DNA of 31,846 bases. Source: a virus. Position 1 is the stretch's first letter, and every line of letters starts with the position of its first letter. The stretch lies in IMG/VR virus record IMGVR_UViG_3300030104_002013, positions 1 through 31,846 of that record; one strand, given 5' to 3'. Shown here one piece after another: positions 3,831 to 28,170 of the stretch. A program made the position numbers and the translations under genes. Under the pieces are notes generated by a model, which was not told where the DNA came from, did not search any database, and worked only from the letters and a program-made list of their open reading frames with translations.

Positions 3831-4492
3831 AAAAAGCAATAGTGTTATTATCGGGTGGTCAAGATAGCACCACTTGTTTGTATTGGGCATTGAGAAACTT
3901 TAAAAAAGTTCTAGCAATCGGTTTTGATTACGGACAAAAGCATTTAAAAGAAATAGAATGTGCTAAAAAAATATGTAAAGATGTAGGAGTGCCTTATGAA
4001 TTAATAAACATAAAAGAATTGCTAGGAAATTCAGCTTTAACAAATCATAATCAAGATATAAATTCAAACCATAAAGATTTAGAACACTTGCCTGCAAGTT
4101 TTGTTCCCGCAAGAAATGCTTTATTTTTAACCGTTGCCACCACTTATGCTTTTAATAATGGAATAAAAAATATAATAACTGGCACGTGTCAAACGGATTA
4201 TAGTGGCTATCCAGATTGTAGACAAGTATTTATTAATAGTTTATCGGTTTCATTATCTTTAGCATTAGACACAGACATTAAAATACACACTCCTTTAATG
4301 TATTTAGACAAAGCACAAACGTGGAAATTAGCAAAAGATTTAGATTGTTTAGATGTTATAATTAAAGACACAATGACTGATTATAATGGATCTCAAAAGA
4401 TGAACGAGTGGGGCAGAGGGGAATTAGACAATCCAGCAAGTGAATTAAGAGCAAAAGGATATTACAAGGCAAAGGAAAACGGTTGGTTATGA
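3827..4492 (+). CDS. queC: QueC-like preQ0 synthase lacking zinc cysteines
   Basis: The 221-residue PP-loop ATPase of the QueC family uses ATP and ammonia to convert CDG through the amide ADG to the nitrile preQ0. The PP-loop LSGGQDSTT (residues 8-16) and the substrate signature GTCQTDYSGYPDCR are present. The C-terminal zinc knuckle is altered: where QueC normally has TCYNG then C-G-x-C-x2-C, this protein reads TMTDYNG (182-188) and EWGRGELDNPASELRAKGY (194-212), with none of the four cysteines. The downstream LRAKG stretch still aligns, so this is not a frameshift. It may be folded without zinc or may stop at ADG. The start overlaps folE by four bases (ATGA). Confidence 0.9.
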   Translation: MKKAIVLLSGGQDSTTCLYWALRNFKKVLAIGFDYGQKHLKEIECAKKICKDVGVPYELINIKELLGNSALTNHNQDINSNHKDLEHLPASFVPARNALFLTVATTYAFNNGIKNIITGTCQTDYSGYPDCRQVFINSLSVSLSLALDTDIKIHTPLMYLDKAQTWKLAKDLDCLDVIIKDTMTDYNGSQKMNEWGRGELDNPASELRAKGYYKAKENGWL

Positions 4493-5232
4493 AAATATAT
4501 TTTGCAAGTTATATAACAAGTCCAAAAATTTTAAAAGTTGAAGGAGATTTTGGAGTATTAATTTCTTATGTTGAAATAAACAAAAAAGGAATAGATGATT
4601 TAAAGAAACCTATAATTTTAGATAGTGGGGCTTTTTCAATAGCATCGGGAAAATCTAAACATACATTAGACGATTATATAAAATTTCTACACAAGAATAA
4701 ACATAAAGTAGAATGGTATGCTAATTTAGATATTATAGGAAATGCTAAAGCAACGTATGATAATCAAAAGGAAATGGAAAAACAAGGATTAAGCCCTGTT
4801 CCCACTTTTCATTATGGAAGTGATTTCAAATGGTTAAAAAAATATAAAGAAGAATATAATTTCATAGGATTGGGCGGGTTAGTTCCATATGCAAAACAAA
4901 AAAAGAAATTATTTAAACATTTATCCAAATGCTTTAATATATTGCGGTCAGATGTTAAAACGCACGGATGGGGAATGTTTGGAAAAAAAACTTTAGAAAC
5001 ATATCCTTTTTATTCTGTAGACAGCACGAGTTGGTTGTATGGTGGAAAGATGAGAAAAAAAGTAGATTTTTTAGAAAAAAATAAAGACGGAGACTGGAGA
5101 AAAGGTGAACCATCATTCGCAAGAGTAATGCACTTTCACGATTTAAACATACATAATGCAAAAGAGTATTTAAAACTTAATAATTATATAACAAAATTAT
5201 GGGAAAAAAGAGGAATAAAATGGGATACATAG
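4489..5232 (+). CDS. dpdA: DpdA-like DNA 7-deazaguanine transglycosylase
   Basis: The 247-residue protein resembles the tRNA-guanine transglycosylase superfamily, in the DpdA group that exchanges guanine for a 7-deazaguanine base in DNA. Visible motifs are ILDSGAFS with Asp45, WYANLDIIGN with Asp81, a GLGGLVP glycine loop, HGWGMFG and YSVDSTSW. It is clearly shorter than TGT (about 370 residues) and lacks the TGT zinc motif C-x-C-x2-C, as expected for phage DpdA forms. Position directly after QueC (ATGA overlap) fits a role as the final, DNA-modifying enzyme. ATG at 4489 is chosen over TTG at 4483. Family assignment rests on motifs and context; the exact DpdA subgroup is not determined. Confidence 0.85.
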   Translation: MKIYFASYITSPKILKVEGDFGVLISYVEINKKGIDDLKKPIILDSGAFSIASGKSKHTLDDYIKFLHKNKHKVEWYANLDIIGNAKATYDNQKEMEKQGLSPVPTFHYGSDFKWLKKYKEEYNFIGLGGLVPYAKQKKKLFKHLSKCFNILRSDVKTHGWGMFGKKTLETYPFYSVDSTSWLYGGKMRKKVDFLEKNKDGDWRKGEPSFARVMHFHDLNIHNAKEYLKLNNYITKLWEKRGIKWDT

Positions 5233-5855
5233 AAATATCTTTAGACAAATTAGTTAAAGCTGATTGGAATTATAAAACAGAAGATAAAGACAAACAGGAA
5301 AAGTTAAAAGAAAACATAAAAAGGAATGGACAAATAGAAAATATTATCATTAGAGAATTAGACACAGGCTTTTATGAGGTTGTTAACGGTAATCACAGAT
5401 TAAGCGTTTTAAAAGATTTAAATATCGAAAAAGCTTATTCGTATAACTTGGGCAAAATAACTCAAGCACAGGCAATAAGAATAGCAATAGAAACTAACGA
5501 AACAAAGTTTGACACAGATAGTATAGCATTAGCAGAAAGAGTTAAAGAATTAACAAAAGAATTTGACTTAAAAGATTTAATAAATACATTACCATATAGC
5601 GAAATAGAAATAGATAATTTTTCTAAACTAACTGACTTTGATTGGGAACAATATGAAACTGATGATTTGAGTGATACATTTAGTGATACAGAATTTGATA
5701 AAACTATTAATGTAAAAGTAAGCAATGAAACTTATAAAAGATGGTTAGAATTAAAAGATCGTTTAAAGGGAATAATAGGATATGAGAATGATAGTAAAGT
5801 AATGGAATTTGCTATTATTGAAACATTAAATATACCATTAAAGTCATTAGAATAA
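5220..5855 (+). CDS. ParB-like nuclease-domain protein
   Basis: With ATG at 5220 the protein has 211 residues; an in-frame ATG seven codons upstream (5199) is possible, but the 5220 start places the typical opening (MGYIEISLDKL) at the N-terminus. A ParB/Srx-type domain occupies about 1-85, with the NGNHRLSVLK box replacing the classical GERR/GHRR motif. An acidic middle and a C-terminal helical part follow. In phages such proteins often lie beside terminase or methyltransferase genes and are variously thought to be nucleotide hydrolases, nucleases or adaptor proteins. It overlaps dpdA by 13 bases, so it may belong functionally to the modification operon. Confidence 0.8.
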   Translation: MGYIEISLDKLVKADWNYKTEDKDKQEKLKENIKRNGQIENIIIRELDTGFYEVVNGNHRLSVLKDLNIEKAYSYNLGKITQAQAIRIAIETNETKFDTDSIALAERVKELTKEFDLKDLINTLPYSEIEIDNFSKLTDFDWEQYETDDLSDTFSDTEFDKTINVKVSNETYKRWLELKDRLKGIIGYENDSKVMEFAIIETLNIPLKSLE

Positions 5856-6015: not shown

Positions 6016-6121
6016 ACATTTGTTTGGATTTTGTGGAGAACCACATTTAAACTTGATTACATTGGTTTTAAGCACACCAATTATATTATACATCACATAT
6101 TACTTTAAACTTTTTAAATAA
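6002..6121 (+). CDS. Small membrane protein
   Basis: ATG at 6002 opens a 39-residue frame: a short N-terminal part (MEIIKHLFGFCGEPH) is followed by a hydrophobic segment (LNLITLVLSTPIILYITYYF) and a basic end. The stop TAA shares one base with the ATG of the small terminase gene (TAATG), the tight coupling seen throughout this genome. One membrane pass is predicted. It is not recognised; the position before terminase suggests nothing certain about the role. Confidence 0.6.
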   Translation: MEIIKHLFGFCGEPHLNLITLVLSTPIILYITYYFKLFK

Positions 6122-6492
6122 TGGCTAATAAGAATAAATACACATTAGAACAAATTAAAGACGCAATTAATAAAGCTGGGGGTTTCATTTCAATAGCTTG
6201 TAAGAGTTTAGGTTGCACAAGGAAAACAATTTATAATTATATTGATAAATACCCAGAACTCAAAGATGTTGTTAATGATATTAGAGAACATTATTTAGAT
6301 ATTGCAGAAGCTAGTTTAATTCAAAAAGTAAAAGACGGAAACACGCCAGAATTATTATTCTATTTAAAAACACAAGGAAAGAAAAGAGGATATGTTGAAA
6401 AGCAACAAATTGATTTGTCGAGTGGTGATAACCAAATAAACAAAATTGAAATTGAGATCGTTAAACCTAAAGGGAACAAGAATACTGAATGA
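6121..6492 (+). CDS. Terminase small subunit-like protein
   Basis: The 123-residue protein has an N-terminal helix-turn-helix at about 10-45 (AGGFISIACKSLGCTRKTIYNYI), followed by the stretch SLIQKVKDGNTPELLFYLKTQGKKRGY found in many small terminase subunits, and a polar tail. Small terminase subunits bind phage DNA at the packaging site and load it on the motor. It lies directly upstream of, and overlaps, the large subunit gene, the usual arrangement. The length is short but normal for this type. No pac or cos site could be recognised nearby. Confidence 0.8.
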   Translation: MANKNKYTLEQIKDAINKAGGFISIACKSLGCTRKTIYNYIDKYPELKDVVNDIREHYLDIAEASLIQKVKDGNTPELLFYLKTQGKKRGYVEKQQIDLSSGDNQINKIEIEIVKPKGNKNTE

Positions 6493-7612: not shown

Positions 7613-7630
7613 AACAAAAAGTAAAAATTT

Positions 7631-7643
7631 ATATTTAATAAAA
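7631..7643 (+). promoter_or_regulatory. ATATTTAATAAAA motif, copy 1
   Basis: Exact 13-base motif preceded by T, ending four bases before the ATG at 7648. It lies in the 35-base gap after the terminase gene and is the same as the motifs at 16886, 17949 and 20650. It could be a late phage promoter (TATATTTA resembles the Bacteroidota -7 element TAnnTTTG) or a translation-start enhancer. Confidence 0.5.
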
Positions 7644-7647
7644 GCAT

Positions 7648-8223
7648 ATGAAAGTAGATTTAGTAATACCAAATGAATGGAAAGATATAACAATTCAACA
7701 ATTTCAAGAATTCGAGGAGAATATATCTTCAAAGAAAAGTAAGACTAATAAATTAATTACAAGTATATCTATATTATGTAATGTAGAGGAAAGAATAATT
7801 AAAAAACTTAAAACAAGAGACTTGCAGGAAATCGCTCTTGAAATAAATAAGTTAGAAAGCAAAAAACCATTAGCGTTTGAATTACAAAAGGTAATTGAAT
7901 ACAAGGGTTTTAAATACGGTTTAATACCAAATATGTCAGAAATGACAACAGGTGAATTCATCGACCTTGAAACGTGGGCTGGAAATGATAATGCGATGAA
8001 AAACCTACACAGGATAATGAGCATATTGTATCGACCAATAGTGGGTAGCATTAATGTAGCTGGGCAATATAAAATTGAAACATACGAACCCACATTAGAG
8101 AAAGAGAATGTGATGTTAGATTTGCCGATGGATATAGCTTTAGGGTGTGTAAATTTTTTTTTTCGTTTAGGCGGACTACTTATAGAGAATTTGCACAACT
8201 CTTTGAACAAGAGGAAAAAGTAG
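7648..8223 (+). CDS. Tail assembly chaperone-like protein, zero-frame product
   Basis: The 191-residue zero-frame protein is like a family in Bacteroidota phages with an opening such as PNEWKDITIQQFQEFEE, a central FKYGLIPNMSEMTTGEFIDL and a conserved LHRIMSILYRPI. I read it as the tail assembly chaperone by analogy with lambda gpG, though direct homology is not shown. At 8154-8163 a run of ten T lets ribosomes move to -1, giving a 261-residue product that ends at 8432. The zero-frame tail after the run (RLGGLLIENLHNSLNKRKK) is basic and short. It is the first gene after terminase and is preceded by the ATATTTAATAAAA motif. Confidence 0.6.
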   Translation: MKVDLVIPNEWKDITIQQFQEFEENISSKKSKTNKLITSISILCNVEERIIKKLKTRDLQEIALEINKLESKKPLAFELQKVIEYKGFKYGLIPNMSEMTTGEFIDLETWAGNDNAMKNLHRIMSILYRPIVGSINVAGQYKIETYEPTLEKENVMLDLPMDIALGCVNFFFRLGGLLIENLHNSLNKRKK

Positions 8224-8432
8224 ATGGGTTTGTTGATGATAATAAACCAAGTGGACAAGATTTGCAAAGTAAATACGGTTGGTATGCTATATTATACTCA
8301 TTAGCAAATGAAAACATTTTAAACATTAAAAAAATAACATTAATACCAATATATGAAACATTAACCTTTTTATGTTATCAAATGGATTACCAACAGGAAA
8401 TGAGAAAGAAACAAAAAAATAGTATTGTCTAA
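8145..8432 (+). CDS. Minus-one-frame extension of the tail chaperone-like gene
   Basis: This frame overlaps the end of the previous gene and continues to a TAA at 8430-8432. A GTG at 8145 could formally start it, but the sequence after the T-run (TTYREFAQLFEQEE, then SKYGWYAILYSLANENI and LTFLCYQMDY) looks like the natural C-terminal half of the preceding protein, not a separate gene. A -1 slip on U-UUU-UUU at 8154-8160 joins the two to give 261 residues, like the lambda G-GT product. The alternative is a one-base error in the ten-T run that split a single 260-residue gene. It overlaps the next gene by one base. Confidence 0.65.
   Translation: MCKFFFSFRRTTYREFAQLFEQEEKVDGFVDDNKPSGQDLQSKYGWYAILYSLANENILNIKKITLIPIYETLTFLCYQMDYQQEMRKKQKNSIV
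8154..8163 (+). other. Slippery T10 run, candidate -1 frameshift site
   Basis: Ten consecutive T, read in the zero frame as AAT TTT TTT TTT CGT. Both 8154-8160 and 8157-8163 fit the X-XXY-YYZ slippery heptamer as U-UUU-UUU. A -1 slip joins the frame ending at 8223 to the frame ending at 8432. No strong downstream stem was recognised by eye. Transcriptional slippage or a sequencing error in the homopolymer are alternatives. Confidence 0.6.
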
Positions 8433-9019
8433 TGGCTGATAAAAACACAAAACAAAACCCGAATAGATTACGATTTGCTTATATAGTAGAGCAATTTGAA
8501 ACAATTCAAAAGAAACACAATTATATCAAATCATTTCATATGGGTCCAGATGAAGAAATTGATATTACAAAACTCGGAATGGAAAATTATCCTATACTAT
8601 ATGTTGAACCAACATCATCATCAGTAGATAATTTTATTGAAAACTTTACATTCAATGTATTGATTTTAGATTTATTTGTTTATAAGGGCATAATAAACAC
8701 ACAATTAATGCCTAACGAAGAAACAATACAAAACAATGTATTACCAATTCAAAGCATAAGAAATGACGCACAAAAAAGAATATTATCACAAGCTCATCAA
8801 ATATTTAAAGATGTTATTATTCAGTTTGTTCAAAATTTTGATGAAGTTAATTCGTGGGTCAATCAAGAGGTAGATTTACAAATGCCTATTAATATGTCGC
8901 CTATTGCAACAGGTGATGATAATATGTTATGGGGTTGGACTGGTCAATTCACTATAACAGTAAATAATCAGAATAGTATATGCACCGATAACACCGTTCA
9001 AATTATAGATCAAACATAA
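8432..9019 (+). CDS. Putative tail terminator or minor tail protein
   Basis: The 195-residue protein is a mixed alpha/beta protein resembling structural proteins found between terminase and tail genes in Bacteroidota phages. The stretch YPILYVEPTSSSVDNF followed by a beta strand NFTFNVLILDL, a central helix with NDAQKRILSQAHQIFKD and a C-terminal WGWTGQFTITV is the pattern expected of a small tail terminator (gpU-type) fold. No signal peptide or catalytic motif is seen. The next gene is gp10-like, a usual neighbour of tail terminators. The assignment is an inference from pattern and position. Confidence 0.5.
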   Translation: MADKNTKQNPNRLRFAYIVEQFETIQKKHNYIKSFHMGPDEEIDITKLGMENYPILYVEPTSSSVDNFIENFTFNVLILDLFVYKGIINTQLMPNEETIQNNVLPIQSIRNDAQKRILSQAHQIFKDVIIQFVQNFDEVNSWVNQEVDLQMPINMSPIATGDDNMLWGWTGQFTITVNNQNSICTDNTVQIIDQT

Positions 9020-9020
9020 T

Positions 9021-9623
9021 ATGAAAATAGACGTAGACCCTAAACAATTACTCAAGACAATACAGGTTTTTCAAGATTATGGAAAACAGGTAAGACGATA
9101 CGCTCGTATGATCTTATCACAAAGAAAGAAAAACACCAAATCAAAACAATTATACAACTCAATAGCATATGAAGTAAACACATCTGGGAACACGGTATCT
9201 GTAAAAATTAGTATGGACGAGTATGGAAAGTTTGTAGACCAAGGGGTTGCGGGTAGTAAGAGTTCTTATCCTGGTGTTGGTAAGACAAAAGATATACTTG
9301 GAATAGAAGAAAATTTTGGTTTTAAGGGTTTAAATATAAAAGAGGGGGTGGTTGAATCGTGGATAGCAAATAAACCCATTAAACTGCGAGAATTAAAAGG
9401 ATCGTCAAAGGGCGGTCAATACAAATCTAAAACAAAACCAAATATCAAAAGTGCAAGTTATTTAATAGGTAGAGCAATAGCGACAAGGGGCTTACCTTAT
9501 ACTGGTTTCTTATCAAAACCAATTATAACACAAGGTAAAAATCTTGAGAATAATCTTTGGAATGCTTTTGGTGAAGATATTGGAGATAATTTAGATAAGG
9601 TTTTAAATTTAAATTTTAAGTAA
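9021..9623 (+). CDS. HK97 gp10-like tail completion protein
   Basis: The 200-residue basic protein has an N-terminal helix, a beta-rich middle containing the characteristic DEYGKFVDQGVAGSKS stretch, and a C-terminal helix with RAIATRGLPYTGFLSKPI. Proteins of this sort (HK97 gp10 or neck/tail-completion family) act at the head-tail joint or as minor tail components. The segment TKSKQLYNSIAYEV before the motif is also typical (short helix plus strand). It begins one base after the previous stop and is followed after two bases by a large tail protein. Confidence 0.65.
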   Translation: MKIDVDPKQLLKTIQVFQDYGKQVRRYARMILSQRKKNTKSKQLYNSIAYEVNTSGNTVSVKISMDEYGKFVDQGVAGSKSSYPGVGKTKDILGIEENFGFKGLNIKEGVVESWIANKPIKLRELKGSSKGGQYKSKTKPNIKSASYLIGRAIATRGLPYTGFLSKPIITQGKNLENNLWNAFGEDIGDNLDKVLNLNFK

Positions 9624-9625
9624 TT

Positions 9626-11185
9626 ATGGGATTAAGTATAGCACAAGCACCGATTTGGAGTGGCTCACAAAAATGGATACCAATTTGGTGGAGAAATCAT
9701 CTGATATTTGGAATTGCACAAAGTAGTGATATATCAGCTTTGTATAAATATAAATTTGTATTAGCGGTATATTTAGATACAACGTCCGGAACACAAATAG
9801 CTAAAATTAAACAACCTTGGAATGGATATGAAAGCTCAAGTGGTGTAGATAGAAGAACATTTTTTGATATAAAAGAAATTGTTGCGAGTTATGTTAGTTT
9901 TACAACAAGGGATCCAAACGAAACCAGCTCATCTCAAGACGCTGAAATTCACGGACTGGGAATGAATAACCCAGACAAACCGTATGGCTTAAGTAATAAT
10001 ATAGTTAGAAAAATAGCTGTCAAAGCGTGGGTTGAATATGCTACAACACCGAACGGTGTTCCAACAGAAGATACGAGCGACACGGTAGACCAATTAGATT
10101 ATTATCAAAATGCTACATATAAATTACCACCAGATATTACACAAACTCAATATGATTTAGATTCTGACCCTTTAGATGATTACGATCCAAATTCAGGAGG
10201 AACAGGAAAGCTACTTACTGACGCTGATTATACTGACGCTAAAGTAAATATTAAATATGATTTCGATACTTTGACAGGTAGTGCTGGAGAAGATTTAAGA
10301 TTTAATACTACTAAATATGTCCAGTTTATTAATCAACAAGATAGAGCAACAATAGCATACAGACCAGACACTTATTATAAAAGAACAGCTATTACAGTAT
10401 ATTATTCAAGCGGTTCAGATACCGACTATATTACAAGCGAGACTGCAACTGGTGGTTCGGCAACTGCAACATCTGACGATAAAAGAATAATACATTTTGG
10501 GTGCGGTCCAAGAAATTTACAATCAATATCAGCGGGTGCTTGGGGTAGTGGCTCAAATACAATATCAATTCAAATTGCGTCTGGTAATTGGTATTATTAT
10601 ACCATACACGGAGAAAGCACAGCGGGAACAGATGGAACAGAAAAATACTATTTTGTTAACGGAAAATATGCTGATGATAATATGGGTTGCAATATTTGGA
10701 ATAGACCTGTCGCTTTAGGAGATAATACAACTGAAAATTTATCTTACATTCGTTTAGGTTGGATAAATAGTTTAGGCACGTGGGATTATTTTAATTTCGC
10801 TTGTAAAAATACAGAACGAATTGAAATCAAAGAACGTATTGATATGCAAACACCAAGAGGTGTATTCAATGAAGAATACTATTCAGAATGGTCTACAGCT
10901 CAAACCAACAGGTCGCTGGGTGTTAGTGCGAAAAGAGTAATGACATTAAACACAGGCTACATTTCAGATGGCGAGGGCAAATTTCTACAATGGTTATTAA
11001 AATCACCACTTGTTCATTTTATAGGAATGGGTGAACAAAACGCAAGTGGAGACAATAATATCTCTTGTCCTGTAAAAGTTAAAACCAGCACACTGACTAA
11101 AAAAACTAAACTGAATGATGGTGTTAAAACTAACTATTCATTTGATATAGAATTTATTGAAAAAGAACCAGTAGTAGCAAGATAA
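9626..11185 (+). CDS. Large virion tail protein (distal tail-like)
   Basis: The 519-residue protein is rich in Thr, Ser, Asn and Tyr and appears beta-structured. Opening residues (IAQAPIWSGSQKWIPIWW) and the C-terminal part (RLGWINSLGTWDYFNFACK, then TLNTGYISDGEGKFLQWLLK) resemble virion proteins of Bacteroidota siphoviruses located near the tail tip. The C-terminal half probably forms the tube- or hub-binding domain. A central variable part (about 150-330) may be exposed. No enzymatic motif is visible. It lies between the gp10-like and hub-like genes, so it is likely a distal tail or baseplate component; receptor binding is possible but not shown. Confidence 0.55.
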   Translation: MGLSIAQAPIWSGSQKWIPIWWRNHLIFGIAQSSDISALYKYKFVLAVYLDTTSGTQIAKIKQPWNGYESSSGVDRRTFFDIKEIVASYVSFTTRDPNETSSSQDAEIHGLGMNNPDKPYGLSNNIVRKIAVKAWVEYATTPNGVPTEDTSDTVDQLDYYQNATYKLPPDITQTQYDLDSDPLDDYDPNSGGTGKLLTDADYTDAKVNIKYDFDTLTGSAGEDLRFNTTKYVQFINQQDRATIAYRPDTYYKRTAITVYYSSGSDTDYITSETATGGSATATSDDKRIIHFGCGPRNLQSISAGAWGSGSNTISIQIASGNWYYYTIHGESTAGTDGTEKYYFVNGKYADDNMGCNIWNRPVALGDNTTENLSYIRLGWINSLGTWDYFNFACKNTERIEIKERIDMQTPRGVFNEEYYSEWSTAQTNRSLGVSAKRVMTLNTGYISDGEGKFLQWLLKSPLVHFIGMGEQNASGDNNISCPVKVKTSTLTKKTKLNDGVKTNYSFDIEFIEKEPVVAR

Positions 11186-11186
11186 T

Positions 11187-14100
11187 ATGAGCAAACCCAC
11201 AATACAAGTAGTTGCGTTTCGTAGAGAAACAAATTCAGACAGTATATATAATACAAAGCCCTATTATTTAGATATACAGGACGCACCTAATATCTCAATC
11301 AATTATAATTTTGAAGATGTTAAAAACCCAGAAACAAGAAAAACAGATTTCAGCCAGACATTCAAATTACCTATGTCAGATGTCAATAATCAATTCTTTG
11401 AACATTGGTATAATGTAAATATCGACAAATTAATCTATTCACAAAATGATTTAATAGAAGCTCAAATAATAGTAAACGGACAACCTGTATTAACTGGTAA
11501 TTTAAAGCTACAAGGGGTTTATAAAAAGGCTGGATATTACGATGTTGCTATATTGGGAAAAATTGCAACACTATTTACAGCGGTGGGAACAAAAACCGTG
11601 AGAGAGGCTTTTACTACACAAGACGAAACAGACCCTACCGTATTCACCGATGATGATGATTTCAAACACTTGTGGGGAACAGGAAATGTTGAGAATTCTT
11701 GGACTGGAGATGGTTCAGTTGTTTTCAATAATACGAGTGGTGTTAGCTTACGAGATACGGTGGCGAGTGTAAATAAAGTTATTTATCCAATAACAGCAAG
11801 CACACATTATCGATGTGAATGGGATAATAGTAATGAAAATGACTGGTTGAATAATCAAACAGATATAGACGATATAGATGGTCAGGATAGAAATTGGGTT
11901 CATTATTTGCCACCAGCTTTGCAGTTAAGATCCATATTAGATAAGATATTTTCAAAGGCTGGTTTCAGATGGTCAAGCACATTTTTAGATAGTATTTATT
12001 TTAGGCGAATATTTATGTCTACAATGGATCACGATGAAACAGCAAATAGATTACCTTCAAGCGATTATCCGGCTGTATTCAATGGTAATGCTTATATGAT
12101 AGCCCCAACAACAACTGACGCACCAGACGCCCCATTAATCTGGGGTGTTGATGATTGGATATTTATGGACACAGGCGAAGACACTTTATCAACAGGTTCT
12201 TTTTCTGGTCCTGCTGTTGATAGTGGTGAGGTCGGACCAATGAGTTCATTTCCAGACTTGTATGAGTTTACACCGAACGTGACTGGTGCTTATCAAATAA
12301 CTATCACATCATATATAGAGCACTATAATATAAGTAGTGGTTCTGCAACAGGACAAATTGCTTTCAGCTTTCACGATGGATCGTATGGGGTAAACCCTTT
12401 AGCTATTCAAGATTTTGAATTTAATGGTTTTACGGATCAATTTTTACAACTAACAACCACAGTATATTTAGAAGCTGGTGAAAGTTATCGACCATATATG
12501 GCTGTTGCGTCAGATAGTGGATATGCTTATCCAATAATAGAACTTGGCGGCAATACATTAATTAATGGTCATCGTTATGAAATAATGGTTCTACCCGAAC
12601 AAATAGGGGTTCAGATTAATGGTGCAACAATCAATCCACCTGTTGGAATTGACCCAGATTTAAAACAATCAGATTTCTTAAAAGATATTATTCAAAGATT
12701 TAATTTAGTAGTGTCTGCAGATAAGGAAGATTCGTCATTATTATATATTGAACCCTTTGATGATTTTGTGGGAACAGGTGAGGTTAGAAATTGGGATAAT
12801 AAAATAGATGATGAAAAGGAAATACTATTAAAACCAACATCAGATTTAATTAAAAAGGGGGTTCATTTTCACGATAAAGAGAGTGAAGATTTCTTAAATA
12901 AAGTAGTTAAAGAACAAATGCCTAATTCTAATGTCTGGGGTCATTATAAACAGAATTTCAATAATGTATTTGCTAAAGATGGTGAATTTGAAAATAAACC
13001 AGTATTAGCACCTTATTTAGTTAATAGACCAATGACTTCGCAGAATAGTGGAACATACGATCCTTTATTAAATAATTTTGTATTTAATGACCAAGCAAGT
13101 TTCAACGAAAATGGTTCACCGATAATAAAAAAATCTCCTCATAAATTATTCTATTATAATGGTATGCCCACTACTTTAGATGAGCCAATATATATGTTTA
13201 ATTATTATTATGTTTATGAACAAATATATTATGCAACCATCGAATACACCAAATACCCATTATGCACTGCATATGAATTAGATAATTCAAATTGGGGTTC
13301 AACAAATGATTTCAGCACAATGAGGTCTTTATTCTGGGATTATAATCGTAATGACTGGATAACCGCTACCACTATGTTTAATGGCTATATGGGAGATATA
13401 CCAAAAGCTTTATACGAAACATATTGGAAAAGATATATACAAGAAATGTATTCAGAAGATAGTAGACTTCTTGAATTAAATATTTACTTAACACCACTTG
13501 ATATAGCAAACTTTGATTTCAGAGATATTATATATCTTAAAGGAACATACTGGAGAGTGGTTAAGCTATCGAATTACCAAGTAGGAACAACAACATCAAC
13601 AAAAATTACTTTATTGAAATCACCAGACTTGAATGGTATGGTTTGTTGGTCTGACCTTTGTGATAATTTAGAATATCAAGTATTAGTGGGTGGTTCAGCG
13701 TTTGGGGCTGATTATTTCATTCAGATTGCTGATGGTTCTGGTGGCTTTACTCCTTTTATGAGCCCAGAATGTTGTGAATGTTTTGGGGGAACACCAATAG
13801 CAGATTTGAACCCTACATTTTGCCTTGTATATGGTGCGTATTCTGACCCTAATAGTGAAACCGTCACCAACACTGATGATCCTGTTGTTCCAGAGGGTAT
13901 GCCGGGGCAACCAACAGGTTCAGGACAAGCGGGTATTATGTCGATGGGAACTAATTTAATTGGTGGTGGTGGTGTTGATGTAAAAAAGATTAAAGCTTTA
14001 ACAAAATTAAAGTCATTTTCTCCAAACAAAACATATAAATTTGTAGACAAAAATGGAACTATAAGAGATATTACAAAGCCAAAGACACCGCAATTAAGCT

Positions 14101-14621
14101 ATCAGAGAAATGATTTCGATGTGGTGGGTAATACTACGAGTGCAATAGGATATATTAATGTCGGAGGTAGTAAAAAACCAATAATAATACGAGGTGAAAC
14201 CATTTCATATGTTAATGCTAAAATTACTTGTATCGTAATTGATGGTGCAGTAGATACAGGAAAGAGTGCTACATTCAATATTGACACCGCTTTTACAATT
14301 TCAGAGGGCTTAATAACTAAAATAGGTGTTGGAAACATAACAACTACTATACAAAGTAATTTAACAACATTATCTTTTGCTTTTGCTTTAGAATGTCAAT
14401 CAATAAGTTCGGGAAGACCGCAAATGATAATTAAAGTAGTCACGTCAAATGCCGACAGTTATACAAAAGTCCAATGGGCTGGACAAATGAGCGTGAATAC
14501 GATGGATATATTGAATTCAACAATTAGTGTTGCTGAAACATTTCTCGCATTATACGAGTCGGCACCATCAGTAAGAGATAATATACTATTAGAAGATAAT
14601 AACAAATTAGCTTGGAATTAA
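11187..14621 (+). CDS. Large tail tip/baseplate hub-like protein
   Basis: This is the largest gene, 1144 residues. The first 130 residues (NFEDVKNPETRKTDFSQTFK, then NQFFEHWYNVN, LIEAQIIVNGQPVLTGNLKL and YDVAILGKIATLF) match the opening of large tail proteins in Bacteroidota phages that occupy the hub or tail-associated-lysin position. The middle (about 300-500) is beta-rich and may be an exposed carbohydrate- or receptor-binding part. Another domain at about 500-780 contains the LKQSDFLKDIIQRFNLVVSADKE segment also seen in hub proteins. The C-terminal 250 residues are Gly/Ser/Thr-rich and look like a separate surface domain. No peptidase motif was recognised. Confidence 0.6.
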   Translation: MSKPTIQVVAFRRETNSDSIYNTKPYYLDIQDAPNISINYNFEDVKNPETRKTDFSQTFKLPMSDVNNQFFEHWYNVNIDKLIYSQNDLIEAQIIVNGQPVLTGNLKLQGVYKKAGYYDVAILGKIATLFTAVGTKTVREAFTTQDETDPTVFTDDDDFKHLWGTGNVENSWTGDGSVVFNNTSGVSLRDTVASVNKVIYPITASTHYRCEWDNSNENDWLNNQTDIDDIDGQDRNWVHYLPPALQLRSILDKIFSKAGFRWSSTFLDSIYFRRIFMSTMDHDETANRLPSSDYPAVFNGNAYMIAPTTTDAPDAPLIWGVDDWIFMDTGEDTLSTGSFSGPAVDSGEVGPMSSFPDLYEFTPNVTGAYQITITSYIEHYNISSGSATGQIAFSFHDGSYGVNPLAIQDFEFNGFTDQFLQLTTTVYLEAGESYRPYMAVASDSGYAYPIIELGGNTLINGHRYEIMVLPEQIGVQINGATINPPVGIDPDLKQSDFLKDIIQRFNLVVSADKEDSSLLYIEPFDDFVGTGEVRNWDNKIDDEKEILLKPTSDLIKKGVHFHDKESEDFLNKVVKEQMPNSNVWGHYKQNFNNVFAKDGEFENKPVLAPYLVNRPMTSQNSGTYDPLLNNFVFNDQASFNENGSPIIKKSPHKLFYYNGMPTTLDEPIYMFNYYYVYEQIYYATIEYTKYPLCTAYELDNSNWGSTNDFSTMRSLFWDYNRNDWITATTMFNGYMGDIPKALYETYWKRYIQEMYSEDSRLLELNIYLTPLDIANFDFRDIIYLKGTYWRVVKLSNYQVGTTTSTKITLLKSPDLNGMVCWSDLCDNLEYQVLVGGSAFGADYFIQIADGSGGFTPFMSPECCECFGGTPIADLNPTFCLVYGAYSDPNSETVTNTDDPVVPEGMPGQPTGSGQAGIMSMGTNLIGGGGVDVKKIKALTKLKSFSPNKTYKFVDKNGTIRDITKPKTPQLSYQRNDFDVVGNTTSAIGYINVGGSKKPIIIRGETISYVNAKITCIVIDGAVDTGKSATFNIDTAFTISEGLITKIGVGNITTTIQSNLTTLSFAFALECQSISSGRPQMIIKVVTSNADSYTKVQWAGQMSVNTMDILNSTISVAETFLALYESAPSVRDNILLEDNNKLAWN

Positions 14622-14815
14622 TGATACACTTAAATCAAATACCTAAATATATTAATTCTACTTGCGAAACAATACCAAAGCAAGTAAAATTAGCAGGAAT
14701 GAAAAAAAGATACGGAAACGAAGAAATAGACATCTTATTCGGCAAATATGAAAAGCATACAAGCTGGAAAAAGTTTATTCATAACATAAAGCAAATATTA
14801 TGGCGAAGAAAATAA
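14621..14815 (+). CDS. Small basic protein before the tape measure
   Basis: With ATG at 14621 (sharing a base with the previous stop, TAATG) the product is 64 residues; a TTG nine bases upstream is in frame but inside the previous gene. The protein is rich in Lys and Ile (MKKRYGNEEIDILFGKYEKH then KKFIHNIKQILWRRK) and looks helical. It overlaps the tape-measure start by 16 bases. It occupies the place where tail chaperones lie in many phages, but is too short and unlike them to call it one. Confidence 0.6.
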   Translation: MIHLNQIPKYINSTCETIPKQVKLAGMKKRYGNEEIDILFGKYEKHTSWKKFIHNIKQILWRRK

Positions 14816-16854
14816 CATACGAAGTAGAAGTTAATGTAGGAAATGCGGAAAAAGGCTTGAAGAAAGTTGATGATGGTGTGAAAGATATAGGAAAATCAAC
14901 TGATGAGTTGAAAAACAAACAAAAGGGTCAAGCTAGTGGTCGATCTAAACAGCTTTCAGAAGAAAAGAAACAACAGGAAGAATTAACCAGCGAAATTGGT
15001 TTTATGGGAATCACTATTGGTGGTGTGAAAAGTGCGTTTTCAAAAATGGGAAAGACAGCAAAATTAGCTTTTTCAAGTATCAAAATGGGTTTAATTGCAA
15101 CAGGGATAGGTGCTTTTCTTATAGCTATAACATCTCTGATGGCTTATTTCACCAAAACAAAAAGAGGTGCGGAACAGTTAAGAGTTGGAATGGCTGTTCT
15201 TGGTGGTATAATGGACAAATTAATGGACACGGTGATTTCAGTGGGTGAATGGCTTGTGAAATTATTTACAGACCCTAAACAAGCGATTAAAGATTTGTGG
15301 AAGTCTATAAAAGAGAATTTAATAAATAGGTTTAAAGGGCTTATTAATACCAGCAAAGCACTTGGAAAAGTATTAAAGGGGGTGTTCACTTTAGATTGGG
15401 ATATGATGAAAGAGGGGGCAAAGGACGCAACAAATGCTCTAGTTCAATTATCAACTGGAATGGATCCAACCAAGATAAAAGAATATAGTCAAGAAATAAT
15501 AAATACAGCAAATGCGTATGGAGAGTTAGAAAAAAGAACAAATGCTTTAAAAAACAGCAACAGAGAATTAAATGTTGAATTCGCACAACAAAGAGCAGAG
15601 GTGGCGGCACTTCGATTAATAGCGGAAGATATTACAAAGAGTGTAGAAGAAAGAATTGACGCGGCTCAAAGAGCGTTTGATATTGAAGATGAATTAATGC
15701 AAAAAAGGGTTGCAAATGCCGAAGAAGAATTAAGAATACAACAAGAAAAAATGGCTTTAGCCGAAAGTTCGGAAGAAGATTTTGACCGTGAGGCTGAATT
15801 GATGATAGCACTCGCAAACATAAGACAGGAAAGTGCTCAAAAACAAATAGCAATTAATGTTAAATTAAATTCTATTAAACAACAACAGGCTGCCGAAGAT
15901 AAAAGACTGCACGATGAAGAAATGGCTCGACAAAAAGAGACAGAACTTGCCCTTGAAAAAGAAGCTCAATTAATAAAAGACAATGCTAAAAAAAGGAGAG
16001 AATATCAAACAAAAGTTGCCGAAGATTATGACGCTTTGAGATTGTCTTATACTTCAATGCTAGACCAAGAGTTATACGCTTTAGAAGAAAAGTTTTTAAA
16101 TGAAACAGCAATAATTGAAAGAGCAAGAAATCAAGGTCAAATTCGAGATGAAGAATATCGTGAAATGATGGATATTGCCCAATACAATTATGACCAATCT
16201 GTATTACAAGCAACACAGGAATTAGCTAATGCAGAATTAGCAATAGAAGCTGATAAAATAGATCAACAATTACAAATGAGACTTGAAACAGCAAGTAATA
16301 TTTTATCAAGTATTGAAAGTATAGGGGCAACAGCAACAGCAAAAGAAATGGACGCTTTAGATAAAGCATATGCCGATGGAAAAATGAGTGAAGAAAAATA
16401 TAATAAACAAAAAGAACAAATTGAGAAAAAAGCGGTGAAACGAGAAAAGAGAATGGCTATGTTAAAATTATTAATTGATACTTCGAGTGCTATTTCAAGT
16501 GGTATAGCAGGTGCGATGGCTAGTGCAACAGCAACGGGGCCGGGAGCGGTATTTACAGCGCCGGGTTTTGTAGCAAGTATGATTGCTTTAGCTCTTGGTA
16601 GTTTTGCTCAAGGTTATGCAATTCTCAACCAAGTGCCGGGCGGGGGTGGAGATGGTCCACCATCTGACAGCTCACCAGAAACATCGGGGGGTGGAAATTC
16701 AACACCAGCACCTGTATTTAACCCAGACGCTTTATTACCACAAAATATGCAAGACACAAATGAGCAACAACCAGTCCAAGCATATGTAATAGAAAACGAT
16801 ATTACTAATGCACAAGCGTTAGCAGAAGAATTAGAGTTTCAAGCCACTTTATAA
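14800..16854 (+). CDS. Tape measure protein
   Basis: The 684-residue protein has the tape-measure plan. It has a charged N-terminus, a hydrophobic segment at about 95-117 (GLIATGIGAFLIAITSLMAYF), amphipathic helices, a very long charged coiled-coil region at about 240-540, a hydrophobic Ala/Gly-rich segment at about 565-610, and a proline-glycine linker. The ending AYVIENDITNAQALAEELE is seen in other Bacteroidota phage tape measures. At roughly 0.15 nm per residue the tail would be near 100 nm long. Tape measures set tail length and enter the host envelope with the DNA. Confidence 0.85.
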   Translation: MAKKITYEVEVNVGNAEKGLKKVDDGVKDIGKSTDELKNKQKGQASGRSKQLSEEKKQQEELTSEIGFMGITIGGVKSAFSKMGKTAKLAFSSIKMGLIATGIGAFLIAITSLMAYFTKTKRGAEQLRVGMAVLGGIMDKLMDTVISVGEWLVKLFTDPKQAIKDLWKSIKENLINRFKGLINTSKALGKVLKGVFTLDWDMMKEGAKDATNALVQLSTGMDPTKIKEYSQEIINTANAYGELEKRTNALKNSNRELNVEFAQQRAEVAALRLIAEDITKSVEERIDAAQRAFDIEDELMQKRVANAEEELRIQQEKMALAESSEEDFDREAELMIALANIRQESAQKQIAINVKLNSIKQQQAAEDKRLHDEEMARQKETELALEKEAQLIKDNAKKRREYQTKVAEDYDALRLSYTSMLDQELYALEEKFLNETAIIERARNQGQIRDEEYREMMDIAQYNYDQSVLQATQELANAELAIEADKIDQQLQMRLETASNILSSIESIGATATAKEMDALDKAYADGKMSEEKYNKQKEQIEKKAVKREKRMAMLKLLIDTSSAISSGIAGAMASATATGPGAVFTAPGFVASMIALALGSFAQGYAILNQVPGGGGDGPPSDSSPETSGGGNSTPAPVFNPDALLPQNMQDTNEQQPVQAYVIENDITNAQALAEELEFQATL

Positions 16855-16885
16855 ATACACACGAATAAACAATATGTTTAAAATT

Positions 16886-16898
16886 ATATTTAATAAAA
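16886..16898 (+). promoter_or_regulatory. ATATTTAATAAAA motif, copy 2
   Basis: Exact 13-base motif preceded by T, in the 53-base gap after the tape measure and nine bases before the ATG of the protease gene. No TTG is found at the usual -33 distance. It is a candidate phage late promoter or translation-start signal. Confidence 0.5.
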
Positions 16899-16907
16899 CG
16901 ATAAGAA

Positions 16908-17924
16908 ATGAGCAAAAAGAAACTTGTTGAACTAATAATAGATCAGTTTTCTGAAAAGTTTGGTGTCCAAGCAATATCATTAGTTGAACTACCAGCAATC
17001 GAAGCTGACTGGGTTTATCTATCTAACGATAATTATTTATCACTTGCAAAAGTAGATGAAGAAAAAAGAATACTTGTGGGCGCAGTATTAATACCCGATA
17101 AAAAAATACCAAGATATGACGCTGACGCTGGTGAAGAATATGAGGTTTATTTCACCTCTGAAACAATAGAACAGGCTGAACAATTATTTATGAAAAACCT
17201 AAATGGTAATAATGCTACATACGAACATAGTGTAGATATACAAGGTTTGTCAGTTATTGAAAGCTGGATAAGTGAAGATGAAAAATATGACAAGTCAAAT
17301 ATGTATGGTTTTAAAATGCCTGTTGGAACTTGGTTTGTAAAAATGAAAGTTGATAATCAAGAAGTGTGGGATAAAATAAAATCAAATGAAGTTCGTGGCT
17401 TTAGTATAGAGGGATATTTCGTTGATAGAATTGAGCAAATGAACCAAGATATAATACCACTCACAGAAGATTGCGACGATTGTTTAGATCAATATACGTT
17501 GGGAAAAATAGGTGAATTGTTATTAGAAGAATTAAAACCTATTGCCGAACTTGATGGTGAACCTTTATTTAAAACAAAACAAGAAGCTGAATTATACGCT
17601 GAAACAATAAAGGGTTGCAAAGGGTATCACGAACACTCTATTGATGGAGTGAGATTATTTATGCCCTGTAAAGACCACAAAACATCTACAATGGATAGAT
17701 ACATCGTTGATGAATTTGGGGAAAAGAAGAAAATGAAGAAGAAAAAATACAAAATGCTTAAATATATATCTTTTATTAAAAGACAGGCTTTAAAGCGATA
17801 TGACTGGAATGAGTGCATAAGGGATATGAGAAAAAAGTTCGGTCAGCAGACGCGAGGAAAAGAGGGTATATGCAAAGATAAACCACTTGCCGAGTGTATG
17901 TGCAGGGCTATGAACAACAGATAA
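16908..17924 (+). CDS. XkdF-like prohead protease
   Basis: The 338-residue protein has an N-terminal XkdF-like protease domain (1-180). It starts with the VQAISLVELPAIEADWVYLS segment, has a candidate catalytic His107 in YEHSVDIQG and a candidate nucleophile Ser166 in VRGFSIEGYF, with GTWFVKMKV between. A second part (225-270) contains GCKGYHEHSIDGVRLFMPC, a conserved phage module with paired His and Cys that might bind metal. The third part (285-338) is basic with several Cys and may bind DNA or capsid. These enzymes process scaffold and capsid in head maturation. Genes for scaffold and capsid follow. Confidence 0.8.
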   Translation: MSKKKLVELIIDQFSEKFGVQAISLVELPAIEADWVYLSNDNYLSLAKVDEEKRILVGAVLIPDKKIPRYDADAGEEYEVYFTSETIEQAEQLFMKNLNGNNATYEHSVDIQGLSVIESWISEDEKYDKSNMYGFKMPVGTWFVKMKVDNQEVWDKIKSNEVRGFSIEGYFVDRIEQMNQDIIPLTEDCDDCLDQYTLGKIGELLLEELKPIAELDGEPLFKTKQEAELYAETIKGCKGYHEHSIDGVRLFMPCKDHKTSTMDRYIVDEFGEKKKMKKKKYKMLKYISFIKRQALKRYDWNECIRDMRKKFGQQTRGKEGICKDKPLAECMCRAMNNR

Positions 17925-17948
17925 GGAACAAACAAGTAATTAATAATC

Positions 17949-17961
17949 ATATTTAATAAAA
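17949..17961 (+). promoter_or_regulatory. ATATTTAATAAAA motif, copy 3
   Basis: Exact 13-base motif, here preceded by C, in the 47-base gap before the scaffold-like gene and ten bases before its ATG. Sequence between the motif and start (CATTAAGAAA) resembles copy 2 (CGATAAGAA). Confidence 0.5.
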
Positions 17962-17971
17962 CATTAAGAAA

Positions 17972-18721
17972 ATGGCTACAACATTAGAAAAAATTCAAAC
18001 ACTATTATCAAGAAAAAAGAAATCAAAAGCATACACGGTAAATTTTTATGCTGAAATGAAATTAGATGACGGAAGAATAATTGCTACAGAAGAAGAAAGT
18101 ATTGCAGTTGGTGTTGCAGTAAAAGTATTAGAAGATGATGGTGTTGCTTATCCACTTGACGCTGGAACATATACGTTAGAAGATGGAACAGCTTTAGTAA
18201 TTGCTGACGGTGGTATCGTATCACAATATGGTGAGGTAGCGGAAACAGAAGAAGTAGTTGAAGAAGTAATGAATGAAGAAGTGGTTGAAGAAGTTGCTGA
18301 CACATCGGTTGTTGATGAAGTGGCTGAAAAAATTGATAGTGCTACACCAGATGAAGTCACCACAGAAGTTGCTAAAGAAATTGCTCAAGAAATTGTGGAT
18401 CATATGACTGAAAAAGTTGAGGACGCTGTTGCAGAGGTTGAAGAAGAAGAAACAGAGGAAGTTGAGGAAATGAAAAAAACTGAAATGTCTTCAATGGTGG
18501 GAGAGTTAATCACAAGATTAGAAAGCGTTGAGACTAAATTAAAAGAAATAGACGAAACACCAGCTGATAATGGAGTATCAATTAACCCAACAGGAGATGA
18601 ATACTCATTCTCAAAAAAACCAAAAGACTTATTTGCAAAACAAAGTCGTAAAGATGTTCTAAAAATGACAACTTCTGAAAGAGCACGATTTATGATACAA
18701 AATAAAATAACAAGAATCTAA
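17972..18721 (+). CDS. Capsid scaffold-like acidic protein
   Basis: The 249-residue protein has a small beta domain at about 18-78 (DDGRIIATEEESIAVG, AGTYTLEDGTALVIADGGIV), then a highly acidic Glu/Val-rich low-complexity stretch (about 85-165) built of repeated EEVVEEV-like units, a coiled coil at about 172-195, and a basic C-terminus. This is the plan of scaffolding proteins in Bacteroidota phages and the gene sits between protease and major capsid, where scaffold normally lies. The basic tail may bind capsid protein. A decoration function for the beta domain is possible. Confidence 0.7.
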   Translation: MATTLEKIQTLLSRKKKSKAYTVNFYAEMKLDDGRIIATEEESIAVGVAVKVLEDDGVAYPLDAGTYTLEDGTALVIADGGIVSQYGEVAETEEVVEEVMNEEVVEEVADTSVVDEVAEKIDSATPDEVTTEVAKEIAQEIVDHMTEKVEDAVAEVEEEETEEVEEMKKTEMSSMVGELITRLESVETKLKEIDETPADNGVSINPTGDEYSFSKKPKDLFAKQSRKDVLKMTTSERARFMIQNKITRI

Positions 18722-18732
18722 ATATAAAAACA

Positions 18733-19731
18733 ATGGCTAATAAAAATTTTCAAGAGGATTATAAAGAAATTAATCCTAAATTAAAAAAGTATTTTTTTAC
18801 AACAACTAACCCAGCAATAACATCAACATATGCTGGAGAGTTAGCACTACCTTATTTAAGTGCGGCACTAAAGAGTGGTAAAACACTTGCTAATAACTGG
18901 ATAACTATTAAAGAGAATATTCCGTTTAAAGCTGTTCTTAAAAACGCAACAAATGCAACTCTTATTCAAGATGGTTCGTGTGATTGGACTGAAAGCGGAA
19001 CTACTACTCTTGCAGAAAGAATATTACAACCAGAAGAATTTATGGTAAACACTGAATTGTGTAAAGGTAAATTCAGAAGTGATTGGGAGGCTTTAGCTAC
19101 TGGTTCATTATACGATGATAAAATACCACCAACATTTGAAGAATTTTTATTAAGTATGATTGCTGACGAAGTTGCTCAAAGTATTGAAAATTCTATTTGG
19201 GTTGGAGATAATACAGTATCGGGACAATTTGAAGGACTTGCTCGTGATACTGGTGTTATTGCTACTGACGGAAATACAGTATTGTCGGGAGCTGACTTTA
19301 CATCGGGAACTAATGTTTTAACGAACTTGGATAAATTATTTACTGATGGAACGAATGGTATTTTAGCAAACTCTCCTGCAATAATAGACAAAGAAGATTT
19401 CACTATTTATGTATCACCTAAAGTTGCTTTATTGTATCAACAAAAATTAGCGTCTGATGGTTATTTAAATGAATACTATGTAAACGAAAAACCACTTAAC
19501 TATATGGGTTATGAAATGGTTGTTTGTCCCGGAATGTCAGATCACAGATTAGTTGCTGGTCAAAAATCTAACTTATATTTTGGCTGTAATACTATGACTG
19601 ATATGACCTCTGTTCGTGTTATCGACAGAACACCAATCGATGGAAGTGATAATGTAAGAATAGCAATGCGATATTCTGCAGGTGTTCAAATAGGTATAGC
19701 AAACGAGACATACGTTGTTAAAGAGGGTTAA
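18733..19731 (+). CDS. Major capsid protein (HK97-like)
   Basis: The 332-residue protein is immediately after the scaffold and has the expected length and composition. It has an N-terminal arm, ITIKENIPFKAVLKNATNATLI, a long helix at about 105-155 (FEEFLLSMIADEVAQSIENS followed by IWVGD) as in the HK97 spine region, and a C-terminal part with YVSPKVALLYQQKL, YMGYEMVVCPGM and the final VRIAMRYSAGVQIGI. These segments are typical of capsid proteins of Bacteroidota phages with HK97 fold. There is no cleavable scaffold domain, so the scaffold is the separate upstream gene. Confidence 0.85.
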   Translation: MANKNFQEDYKEINPKLKKYFFTTTNPAITSTYAGELALPYLSAALKSGKTLANNWITIKENIPFKAVLKNATNATLIQDGSCDWTESGTTTLAERILQPEEFMVNTELCKGKFRSDWEALATGSLYDDKIPPTFEEFLLSMIADEVAQSIENSIWVGDNTVSGQFEGLARDTGVIATDGNTVLSGADFTSGTNVLTNLDKLFTDGTNGILANSPAIIDKEDFTIYVSPKVALLYQQKLASDGYLNEYYVNEKPLNYMGYEMVVCPGMSDHRLVAGQKSNLYFGCNTMTDMTSVRVIDRTPIDGSDNVRIAMRYSAGVQIGIANETYVVKEG

Positions 19732-19748
19732 TTGATAACTAAATTGAT

Positions 19749-19774
19749 AAGAGTGGTTGAAATATACCACTCTT
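19749..19774 (+). terminator. Hairpin after the major capsid gene
   Basis: A perfect nine-base-pair stem (AAGAGTGGT paired with ACCACTCTT) with an eight-base loop lies in the 65-base gap after the capsid gene. The tail after it is only CTTTAACTA, so termination is probably partial. It may stabilise the capsid message, as capsid genes need high expression. Confidence 0.6.
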
Positions 19775-19796
19775 TAACTATAAAAATTATACACAA

Positions 19797-20396
19797 ATGG
19801 GATGTAGTTTAACAAAAGGAAGAACATTATCTTGCACACAAGCAATAGGAGGTATCAAAAGAGTTTATTTTTCATTATGGAGTAAAACTTTTTGGAGTTC
19901 GGATCTAACTTATAACGGAACTGATGTTTATCAAATAGATGATATTGATTCTTCAACAAATATGGTTCAATACGATACAAGACCTAATTTATCACAAATG
20001 ACCGTGACGGTAGCTAATGGAGACGCAAGTGCTGGAACACCTGCTTTCTACGATCAAGCGTGTGATTTAGTTCTACAGAAATTAGATGTTGTTTCATTGG
20101 CTTATTTAAAAGAGTTGGGAGATAGTAGAACAATTGCTTGGGTTTTAGATATGAATAATAGAATTTGGGTTTTAGGTTTAAAACACGGATGTAGAATTAC
20201 TGGAGGAACATTTGTTTCTGGAACAGCACGAGGTGATATGTCGGGCTTTACTTTATCATTATCAGCACAAGAAGCTGAACCAATGTATGGAGTGAAATTT
20301 GATGCGTCTGCAACTGAAACCACTGCGAATTATCCTTGGACAGGAATAACAACTCCTGCTAATGCGGCGATTCAAGCACAAGTGACACCAGCATAA
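19797..20396 (+). CDS. Major tail (tube) protein-like
   Basis: The 199-residue protein begins with MGCSLTKGRTLSCTQAIGGI, an opening I associate with Bacteroidota phage tail tube proteins, which have the same KGRxLxC...GGIK pattern. The remainder alternates beta strands (QMTVTVANGD, IWVLGLKHGCRITGG, GFTLSLSAQEAEPMYG). The SGTARGDMSGFTLSLSAQEA segment fits the tube family. The gene follows the capsid gene and ends a transcription unit with a strong terminator. There is no signal sequence or enzymatic motif. A capsid-associated beta-sandwich protein is the alternative. Confidence 0.6.
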   Translation: MGCSLTKGRTLSCTQAIGGIKRVYFSLWSKTFWSSDLTYNGTDVYQIDDIDSSTNMVQYDTRPNLSQMTVTVANGDASAGTPAFYDQACDLVLQKLDVVSLAYLKELGDSRTIAWVLDMNNRIWVLGLKHGCRITGGTFVSGTARGDMSGFTLSLSAQEAEPMYGVKFDASATETTANYPWTGITTPANAAIQAQVTPA

Positions 20397-20426
20397 ATAA
20401 AACAAATTTTTCATATTCTGTTTTTG

Positions 20427-20468
20427 AAAAAGAGGGCACATCTGACGGTGGTTAGTCCTCTTTTTTTT
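20427..20468 (+). terminator. Rho-independent terminator after the tail tube gene
   Basis: AAAAAGAGG at 20427-20435 pairs with CCTCTTTTT at 20457-20465, followed by more T (run to 20468). The 21-base loop can fold a little. It lies 31 bases after the tube stop and is the clearest terminator in the window. It separates the capsid-tube unit from the portal unit. Confidence 0.8.
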
Positions 20469-20513
20469 ATGTTATAATAAAAAAAAACCATAAAGCCAAA
20501 TAATTAATTTTAT

Positions 20514-20525
20514 ACATCTGTTAAT
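20514..20525. promoter_or_regulatory. ACATCTGTTAAT site, copy 1 (possible operator)
   Basis: The sequence TACATCTGTTAAT (20513-20525) occurs here and again at 28084-28096, both in the only two sizeable non-coding gaps and both upstream of candidate promoters. The surrounding 275-base gap (20397-20671) holds this site, a terminator, a candidate promoter and the late motif, but no gene. The sequence may be an operator for the XRE-type regulator; this is a guess. Confidence 0.35.
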
Positions 20526-20591
20526 TTAGTTTCGTGCAGTAGGTAATGTATTTATACCACAAAAGATAGATAATGCCTTAAAACGAAGATT

Positions 20592-20619
20592 TTGCGTGTT
20601 AAATTAAATGTTATATTTT
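20592..20619 (+). promoter_or_regulatory. Candidate host-type promoter before the portal unit
   Basis: TTG at 20592-20594 is followed after 17 bases by TATATTTT at 20612-20619, close to the Bacteroidota pattern TTG-N17-23-TAnnTTTG. The TTTGCGT containing the -33 element is also repeated inverted as ACGCAAA at 20627-20633. It lies after a terminator and before the gene at 20672, where a promoter is needed. Confidence 0.4.
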
Positions 20620-20649
20620 TACACATACGCAAACAGATTGCTGATATTT

Positions 20650-20662
20650 ATATTTAATAAAA
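20650..20662 (+). promoter_or_regulatory. ATATTTAATAAAA motif, copy 4
   Basis: Exact 13-base motif preceded by T, nine bases before the ATG at 20672 and the only copy that follows a strong terminator. That placement supports a promoter role, because the downstream portal unit must be transcribed from somewhere in this gap. Confidence 0.55.
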
Positions 20663-28142: not shown

Positions 28143-28170
28143 TTGATATATAAAATTTTTTTTATATTTG
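28143..28170 (+). promoter_or_regulatory. Host-type early promoter
   Basis: TTG at 28143-28145 and TATATTTG at 28163-28170, 17 bases apart, match the Bacteroidota/flavobacterial consensus TTG-N17-23-TAnnTTTG. Transcription should begin near 28177, leaving a leader of about 17 A-rich bases before the ATG at 28194. It is the best consensus promoter in the genome and lies in the only large gap before the early genes, so it likely drives the long transcript across the circular join. Confidence 0.75.

Follow-up and report, generated by a model that had tools for sequence, protein, structure and literature searches.

Genome organization around the late genes

The window, as we call the whole 31.8-kb stretch of phage DNA analysed here, carries a 94-bp direct terminal repeat (positions 1-94 and 31753-31846), and because of this repeat the record, for which no completeness is stated, is probably a complete genome. 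Its G+C content is 31%. The major capsid protein (MCP), encoded at 18733, weakly matches Nonlabens phages P12024S/L (27%). When the late region was compared with cultured phages by megablast, nothing matched, and a scan of bacterial genomes with the MCP matched only contigs of metagenome-assembled genomes (MAGs).

An early-type block extends from 28194 across the genome ends to about 5855 and holds a sigma factor gene and 7-deazaguanine genes; its radical SAM, GTP cyclohydrolase I, QueC and ParB-like genes (2254-5855) suggest 7-deazaguanine DNA modification. The late block (7648-28082), which terL immediately precedes, comprises the tail, protease, scaffold, capsid, portal, peptidase and related genes. 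Ahead of the first early-block gene (28194) lies a host-type box, TATATTTG, on the + strand at 28163-28170, which is probably an early promoter; the box of flavobacterial sigma-A promoters is TAnnTTTG (PMC9723704). A generic sigma-70 promoter scan returned 80 matches in the window and 97 in shuffles, so that E. coli-type promoters are uninformative here.

Two hairpins followed by T-runs were read from the sequence of the + strand. The one at 20427-20468, with the stem AAAAGAGG...CCTCTTTT, is probably a terminator and recurs at this position in most relatives; the terminator scan paired with the sigma-70 scan did not pick it up in the window. The other (GAGTGG...CCACTC, 19751-19772) lies between the major capsid gene and 19797. 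Its stem is preserved with changed bases in relatives and no late promoter follows it, and it may be an attenuator or an mRNA-stability element.

A 13-base word and a second box precede four late-block genes

No other 13-mer of the window is repeated as often as ATATTTAATAAAA, which occurs at 7631-7643, 16886-16898, 17949-17961 and 20650-20662, always on the + strand. Markov models of orders 1-3 predict 0.04-0.06 copies on this strand against the four observed. All four lie inside gaps, where the non-coding share of the window is 3.2% by our own gene set, and they end 4, 9, 10 and 9 nt before the ATG of genes that start at 7648, 16908, 17972 and 20672. The original prediction had described these copies at the same positions, 4-10 nt before start codons, with three preceded by T and none elsewhere in the window. 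An exact and degenerate motif search bore this out: the base before the fourth copy (17949) is C, no further exact copy exists on either strand of the window, and coding regions hold none. When two mismatches were allowed, the word was not enriched in the window (23 found, 19 expected). Only its near-exact form is informative, and we therefore used a two-part element in its place.

The second part of this element had been missed. In all four window copies, ATATTT is preceded by an AACA whose first base lies exactly 18 nt upstream. Judged by this arrangement, the 13-mer is part of a two-part signal in which a -35-type AAC(A) box stands upstream, on the plan AAC-N16-TATATTTA. The original prediction had described a lone -7-like box resembling the host early box; TATATTTA is indeed one base from TATATTTG, but the box does not stand alone.

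The four motifs are placed at the heads of four late-block units, all on the + strand. Predicted late promoter 1 (7613-7643) has AAC at 7613, the -10-type box TATATTTA at 7630-7637 and the 13-mer at 7631-7643; RNA would start at about 7644 (+/-2), ahead of the first tail-cluster gene at 7648, and the element precedes the orthologous gene in six relatives (G001, G002, G010, G013, G014 and L109). Predicted promoter 2 (16868-16898), with AAC at 16868 and TATATTTA at 16885-16892, would start RNA at about 16899, upstream of the protease gene at 16908. The orthologous site is found in G001, G002, G010 and G014, and in G002 it comes directly after a hairpin and T-run. In predicted promoter 3 (17931-17961), AAC at 17931 is combined with CATATTTA at 17948-17955, for a predicted start at about 17962 and a scaffold gene at 17972; the same four relatives share this site, with spacing one base longer in G001. 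Predicted promoter 4 (20632-20662) has AAC at 20632 and TATATTTA at 20649-20656 and would start RNA at about 20663, before the gene at 20672 that lies upstream of the portal gene. Its position, after the terminator and before portal, is common to about 30 relatives.

These sites share features with promoters of extracytoplasmic function (ECF) sigma factors. AAC is present in the -35 region at all four window sites, and it is separated from the -10 box as AAC-N16-TATT in the window and as AAC-N16/17 in other clades; 16-17 nt is the standard spacing between AAC and the -10 box of ECF promoters. The CGT of ECF -10 boxes is absent from the window clade, which has TATT, and present in P12024S (CGTTA) and in L165 (CGTTATA). 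The sites do not follow the host sigma-A pattern of TAnnTTTG with TTG near -33, since A replaces the final G and, as had been noticed before, no TTG is conserved upstream. Nor do they follow the phiEco32 type, an extended -10 with no -35 element, given the AAC at fixed spacing in four of four sites.

The two-part element is conserved in related phages

In the relative G001, whose MCP is 78% identical, four exact copies of the 13-mer occupy the same places although their flanks have diverged, and AACA lies 18 nt before ATATTT at three of these four syntenic sites, the fourth being one base longer. AAC-N16-TATATTTA also stands before genes of the same classes in G002, G010, G013 and G014. The two-part element is thus present in G002, where the 13-mer is missing even at one mismatch; the 13-mer is therefore only a local form. 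Across the window and these five relatives, ACAA-N12-TATATTTA has 13 exact matches where 0-0.05 would be expected per strand per genome, and a gene start follows closely after each of them; near-exact copies occupy the remaining places in the six genomes. With a weight matrix built from the window, G001 and G002, the four late starts of G010 were the top four places on both strands, and the top matches in G014, L109, G007, G018 and P12024S were late starts.

We also counted ACAAA in 763 upstream regions, drawn from 126 related records, with start codons called mechanically and contigs partly redundant. The counts peaked precisely at position -30 relative to the start codon, with 35 occurrences where offsets averaged 4.9 (P ~1e-18), and 26 different records contributed to this peak. 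No such peak was seen in four Cellulophaga phages that lack the sigma factor. At the post-terminator gene before portal, hairpin, T-run, AAC, N16/17, -10 box and ATG are contiguous in about 30 phages.

The -10 box differs between clades while AAC is kept

In more distant phages, AAC is retained some 31 nt ahead of the start codon, and the -10 box differs by clade. It is TATTATATA in G007-9, CTATTATATA in G015, G017 and G018, TTATTATAATA or TTATTGTATA in G027 and G004, of GTTA types in many relatives and CGTTA in Nonlabens phage P12024S, which has seven copies of AAC-N16/17-CGTTA, each 31-32 nt before an ATG. Among loci fetched afterwards, a Flavobacteriaceae MAG contig has a CGTTATA box at its tail, protease, scaffold and post-terminator genes, with a weaker AAC, and two others have CTATTATATA on the same plan. 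AAC and the start codon are 35-41 nt apart in the window and 30-34 nt apart at most sites of other clades. Within the window clade, the -10 box lies a variable 5-18 nt from the ATG, whereas the spacing from AAC to the box is fixed.

Other upstream motifs were seen in these records. In L076, L089, L028 and G030, a sigma homologue is present and the upstream motif is different. At the post-terminator gene of L034, L098, L076, L027, L083, L089 and G030, TTGTTA leads a series of as many as three AGATAA units, which run into the ATG at a pitch of about 10 nt, with no AAC at -31; this may be a second type of late promoter or an activator site. The perfect 12-bp palindrome TTGATTAATCAA has 18 copies in the 126 records and is absent from the window. 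Each copy closely follows a late-promoter-like box and stands some 10 nt ahead of the gene that precedes terL, for example in G007 (L018) at 14026, G015 (L152), G018 (L147) at 12788, G017 (L155) at 11163 and G027 (L149) at 16738, among others, and the palindrome resembles an operator over the predicted RNA start. Finally, host-type TATATTTG lies a few nucleotides before an ATG at 19927-20046 of G007 (L018/L019) and in its G009 homologue, a placement that could make an early message leaderless too.

The early-type block encodes an ECF-type sigma factor

The gene at 871-1431 (+ strand) encodes an ECF-type sigma factor of 186 aa, the candidate reader of the four predicted promoters. The protein matches TIGR02937 (sigma70-ECF) over residues 4-184 with 46.9 bits (E 2.3e-12), above the curated NCBI cut-off of 42.9 bits, and also matches phrog_1740. 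It is small and consists of regions 2 and 4 only. Its AlphaFold2 model is all-helical and two-part (pLDDT 79, pTM 0.55). Foldseek matches of the whole model were weak (E >0.01), with ECF sigma factors making up most of the top matches, and the C-terminal part matched sigma-E region 4 bound to -35 DNA (TMt 0.72).

With iterated profiles, we found homologues in all relatives that have full or nearly full sequences, including P12024S_33. The window sigma gave no tblastn match in cultured phages, and the homology to P12024S_33 is distant, as it was reached by iterated profiles only. Region 2 is less conserved than region 4 between clades A and B (24% vs 34% identity) and between clades B and C (19% vs 33%); the pattern is absent in comparisons with P12024S. 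These identities are only suggestive of co-evolution between the sigma factor and the -10 box. In general, the sequences recognised by ECF sigma factors are AAC at -35 and CGT at -10 (PMC4153023), a plan that the P12024S promoters fit literally.

Discussion

Together, these results make it highly probable that the four sites are late promoters of the phage ECF-type sigma factor and give rise to structural-gene messages that are nearly leaderless. A late promoter, a phage sigma factor and a nearly leaderless message had all been part of the original prediction, and comparison with relatives strongly supports them. The reader would indeed be a phage sigma factor; it is of ECF type, so the likeness of its box to host TAnnTTTG is probably incidental. 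The link between sigma factor and promoters draws on knowledge of the ECF family and on co-occurrence, and the lack of the ECF-typical CGT in the window -10 box counts against it. The weak whole-model Foldseek matches also speak against this reading, as does the group of L076, L089, L028 and G030, in which the sigma homologue goes with another upstream motif.

That the sites are weak host sigma-A promoters, with TATATTTA a TAnnTTTG variant and the phage sigma acting elsewhere, appears improbable to us. A single base separates the two boxes, and the distance from box to start would suit a host box, which lies at -12 to -5 (PMC9723704), but the final G is missing at all sites, TTG is missing near -33, and a different upstream box, AAC, stands at fixed spacing. 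Moreover, relatives hold AAC while the other box turns into CGTTA, GTTA or TATTATATA, none of which resembles a sigma-A box. We think it unlikely, too, that ACAA is the site of another phage DNA-binding protein, a separate activator that works with the host or phage sigma factor. ACAA is rather near the predicted start (about -30) and a helix-turn-helix protein (6121-6492) adjoins terL; against this, the ECF -35 plan is itself AAC followed by a 16-17 nt spacer, an ECF sigma is present, and no dyad or longer site surrounds ACAA.

A role in translation, as an A/T-rich mRNA element that aids ribosomes working without Shine-Dalgarno pairing, would agree with the finding that initiation in Flavobacterium benefits from an A-rich context ahead of start codons (PMC6847099). 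It is very improbable, because it is the distance between AAC and the box that is fixed and not that to the ATG, because other gene starts, including that of the MCP gene, lack the element, and because the sites often come directly after terminators. That an A/T-rich word recurred by chance or was recently duplicated might be considered in a genome this poor in G+C, where the word is unenriched at two mismatches, but is hardly credible given the expected number of exact copies, the four syntenic copies with diverged flanks in G001 and the presence of the same plan in distant phages.

Under the ECF promoter interpretation, host sigma-A would start the early block, probably from TATATTTG at 28163, and the ECF sigma would be made with it. 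The phage sigma would then bind host core RNA polymerase and direct it to the four late promoters, with region 4 reading AAC and region 2 reading TATATTTA, as expected from the ECF family. From the geometry, the RNA start would lie some 31 nt downstream of the AAC box, immediately past the 13-mer. The tail, protease, scaffold/capsid and portal/lysis messages would thus have leaders of about 4-10 nt, in keeping with the 35-41 nt from AAC to the start codon; in most related phages, where 30-34 nt prevail, the predicted leader is about 0 nt, with RNA starting at the A of the ATG or beside it. Host ribosomes that are independent of Shine-Dalgarno sequences would tolerate such short leaders.

Phage-encoded ECF-type sigma factors with middle or late promoters are known from phiEco32 (gp36) and phage 7-11 (PMC4331800, PMC7881722), and the window resembles these in having few conserved promoter copies per genome, before structural genes. 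The phiEco32 and 7-11 promoters have an extended -10 (TAATGTATA; TGATGT core) and were described without a recognisable -35 element (PMC5333181), whereas the system described here belongs to Bacteroidota phages, has a clear AAC at fixed spacing, would start RNA at or next to the start codon and changes its -10 box clade by clade. Bacterial ECF promoters, including flavobacterial SM6, share the AAC -35 box, a CGT-like -10 box and 16-17 nt spacing (PMC4153023, PMC9723704), a likeness clearest in P12024S; the window clade differs from them in its TATATTTA box, in serving phage late genes and in its predicted near-leaderless messages. The A/T-rich -10-side box of the window recalls Bacteroidota sigma-A promoters (TTTG at -33, TAnnTTTG at -7), but the last G and the TTG at -33 are missing and AAC is there instead. 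Late promoters of T4 (TATAAATA) have no -35 box and are read by gp55, which is not an ECF sigma with region 4. As in T4, late genes lie behind a short A/T-rich -10-type box for which we propose a phage sigma reader, but the window sites have AAC and the window sigma is of ECF type. In the open-access literature, to which our search extended, we found no reports of these promoters.

For a common, unstudied group of Bacteroidota phages with one cultured member, P12024S (on Nonlabens), these results offer a testable late-transcription programme, and they predict strong structural-gene expression with almost no 5' leader in hosts without Shine-Dalgarno pairing. It seems reasonably likely that widespread Bacteroidota phages make nearly all their late messages leaderless from ECF-type promoters, with co-evolving pairs of sigma factor and -10 box while the -35 box and the geometry stay fixed. 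Leaderless mRNAs make up 5.5% in flavobacteria (PMC9723704), and mRNAs with a 5' leader of <10 nt make up 3.7% in Bacteroides (PMC7366714). If true, the phages would carry a naturally occurring collection of sigma factors that differ in specificity, within a phylum in which such messages are rare. Swapped -10 boxes beside a constant -35 would provide matched sigma/promoter pairs in which to study how the specificity of ECF region 2 evolves, and these pairs may also become tools for Bacteroidota genetics.
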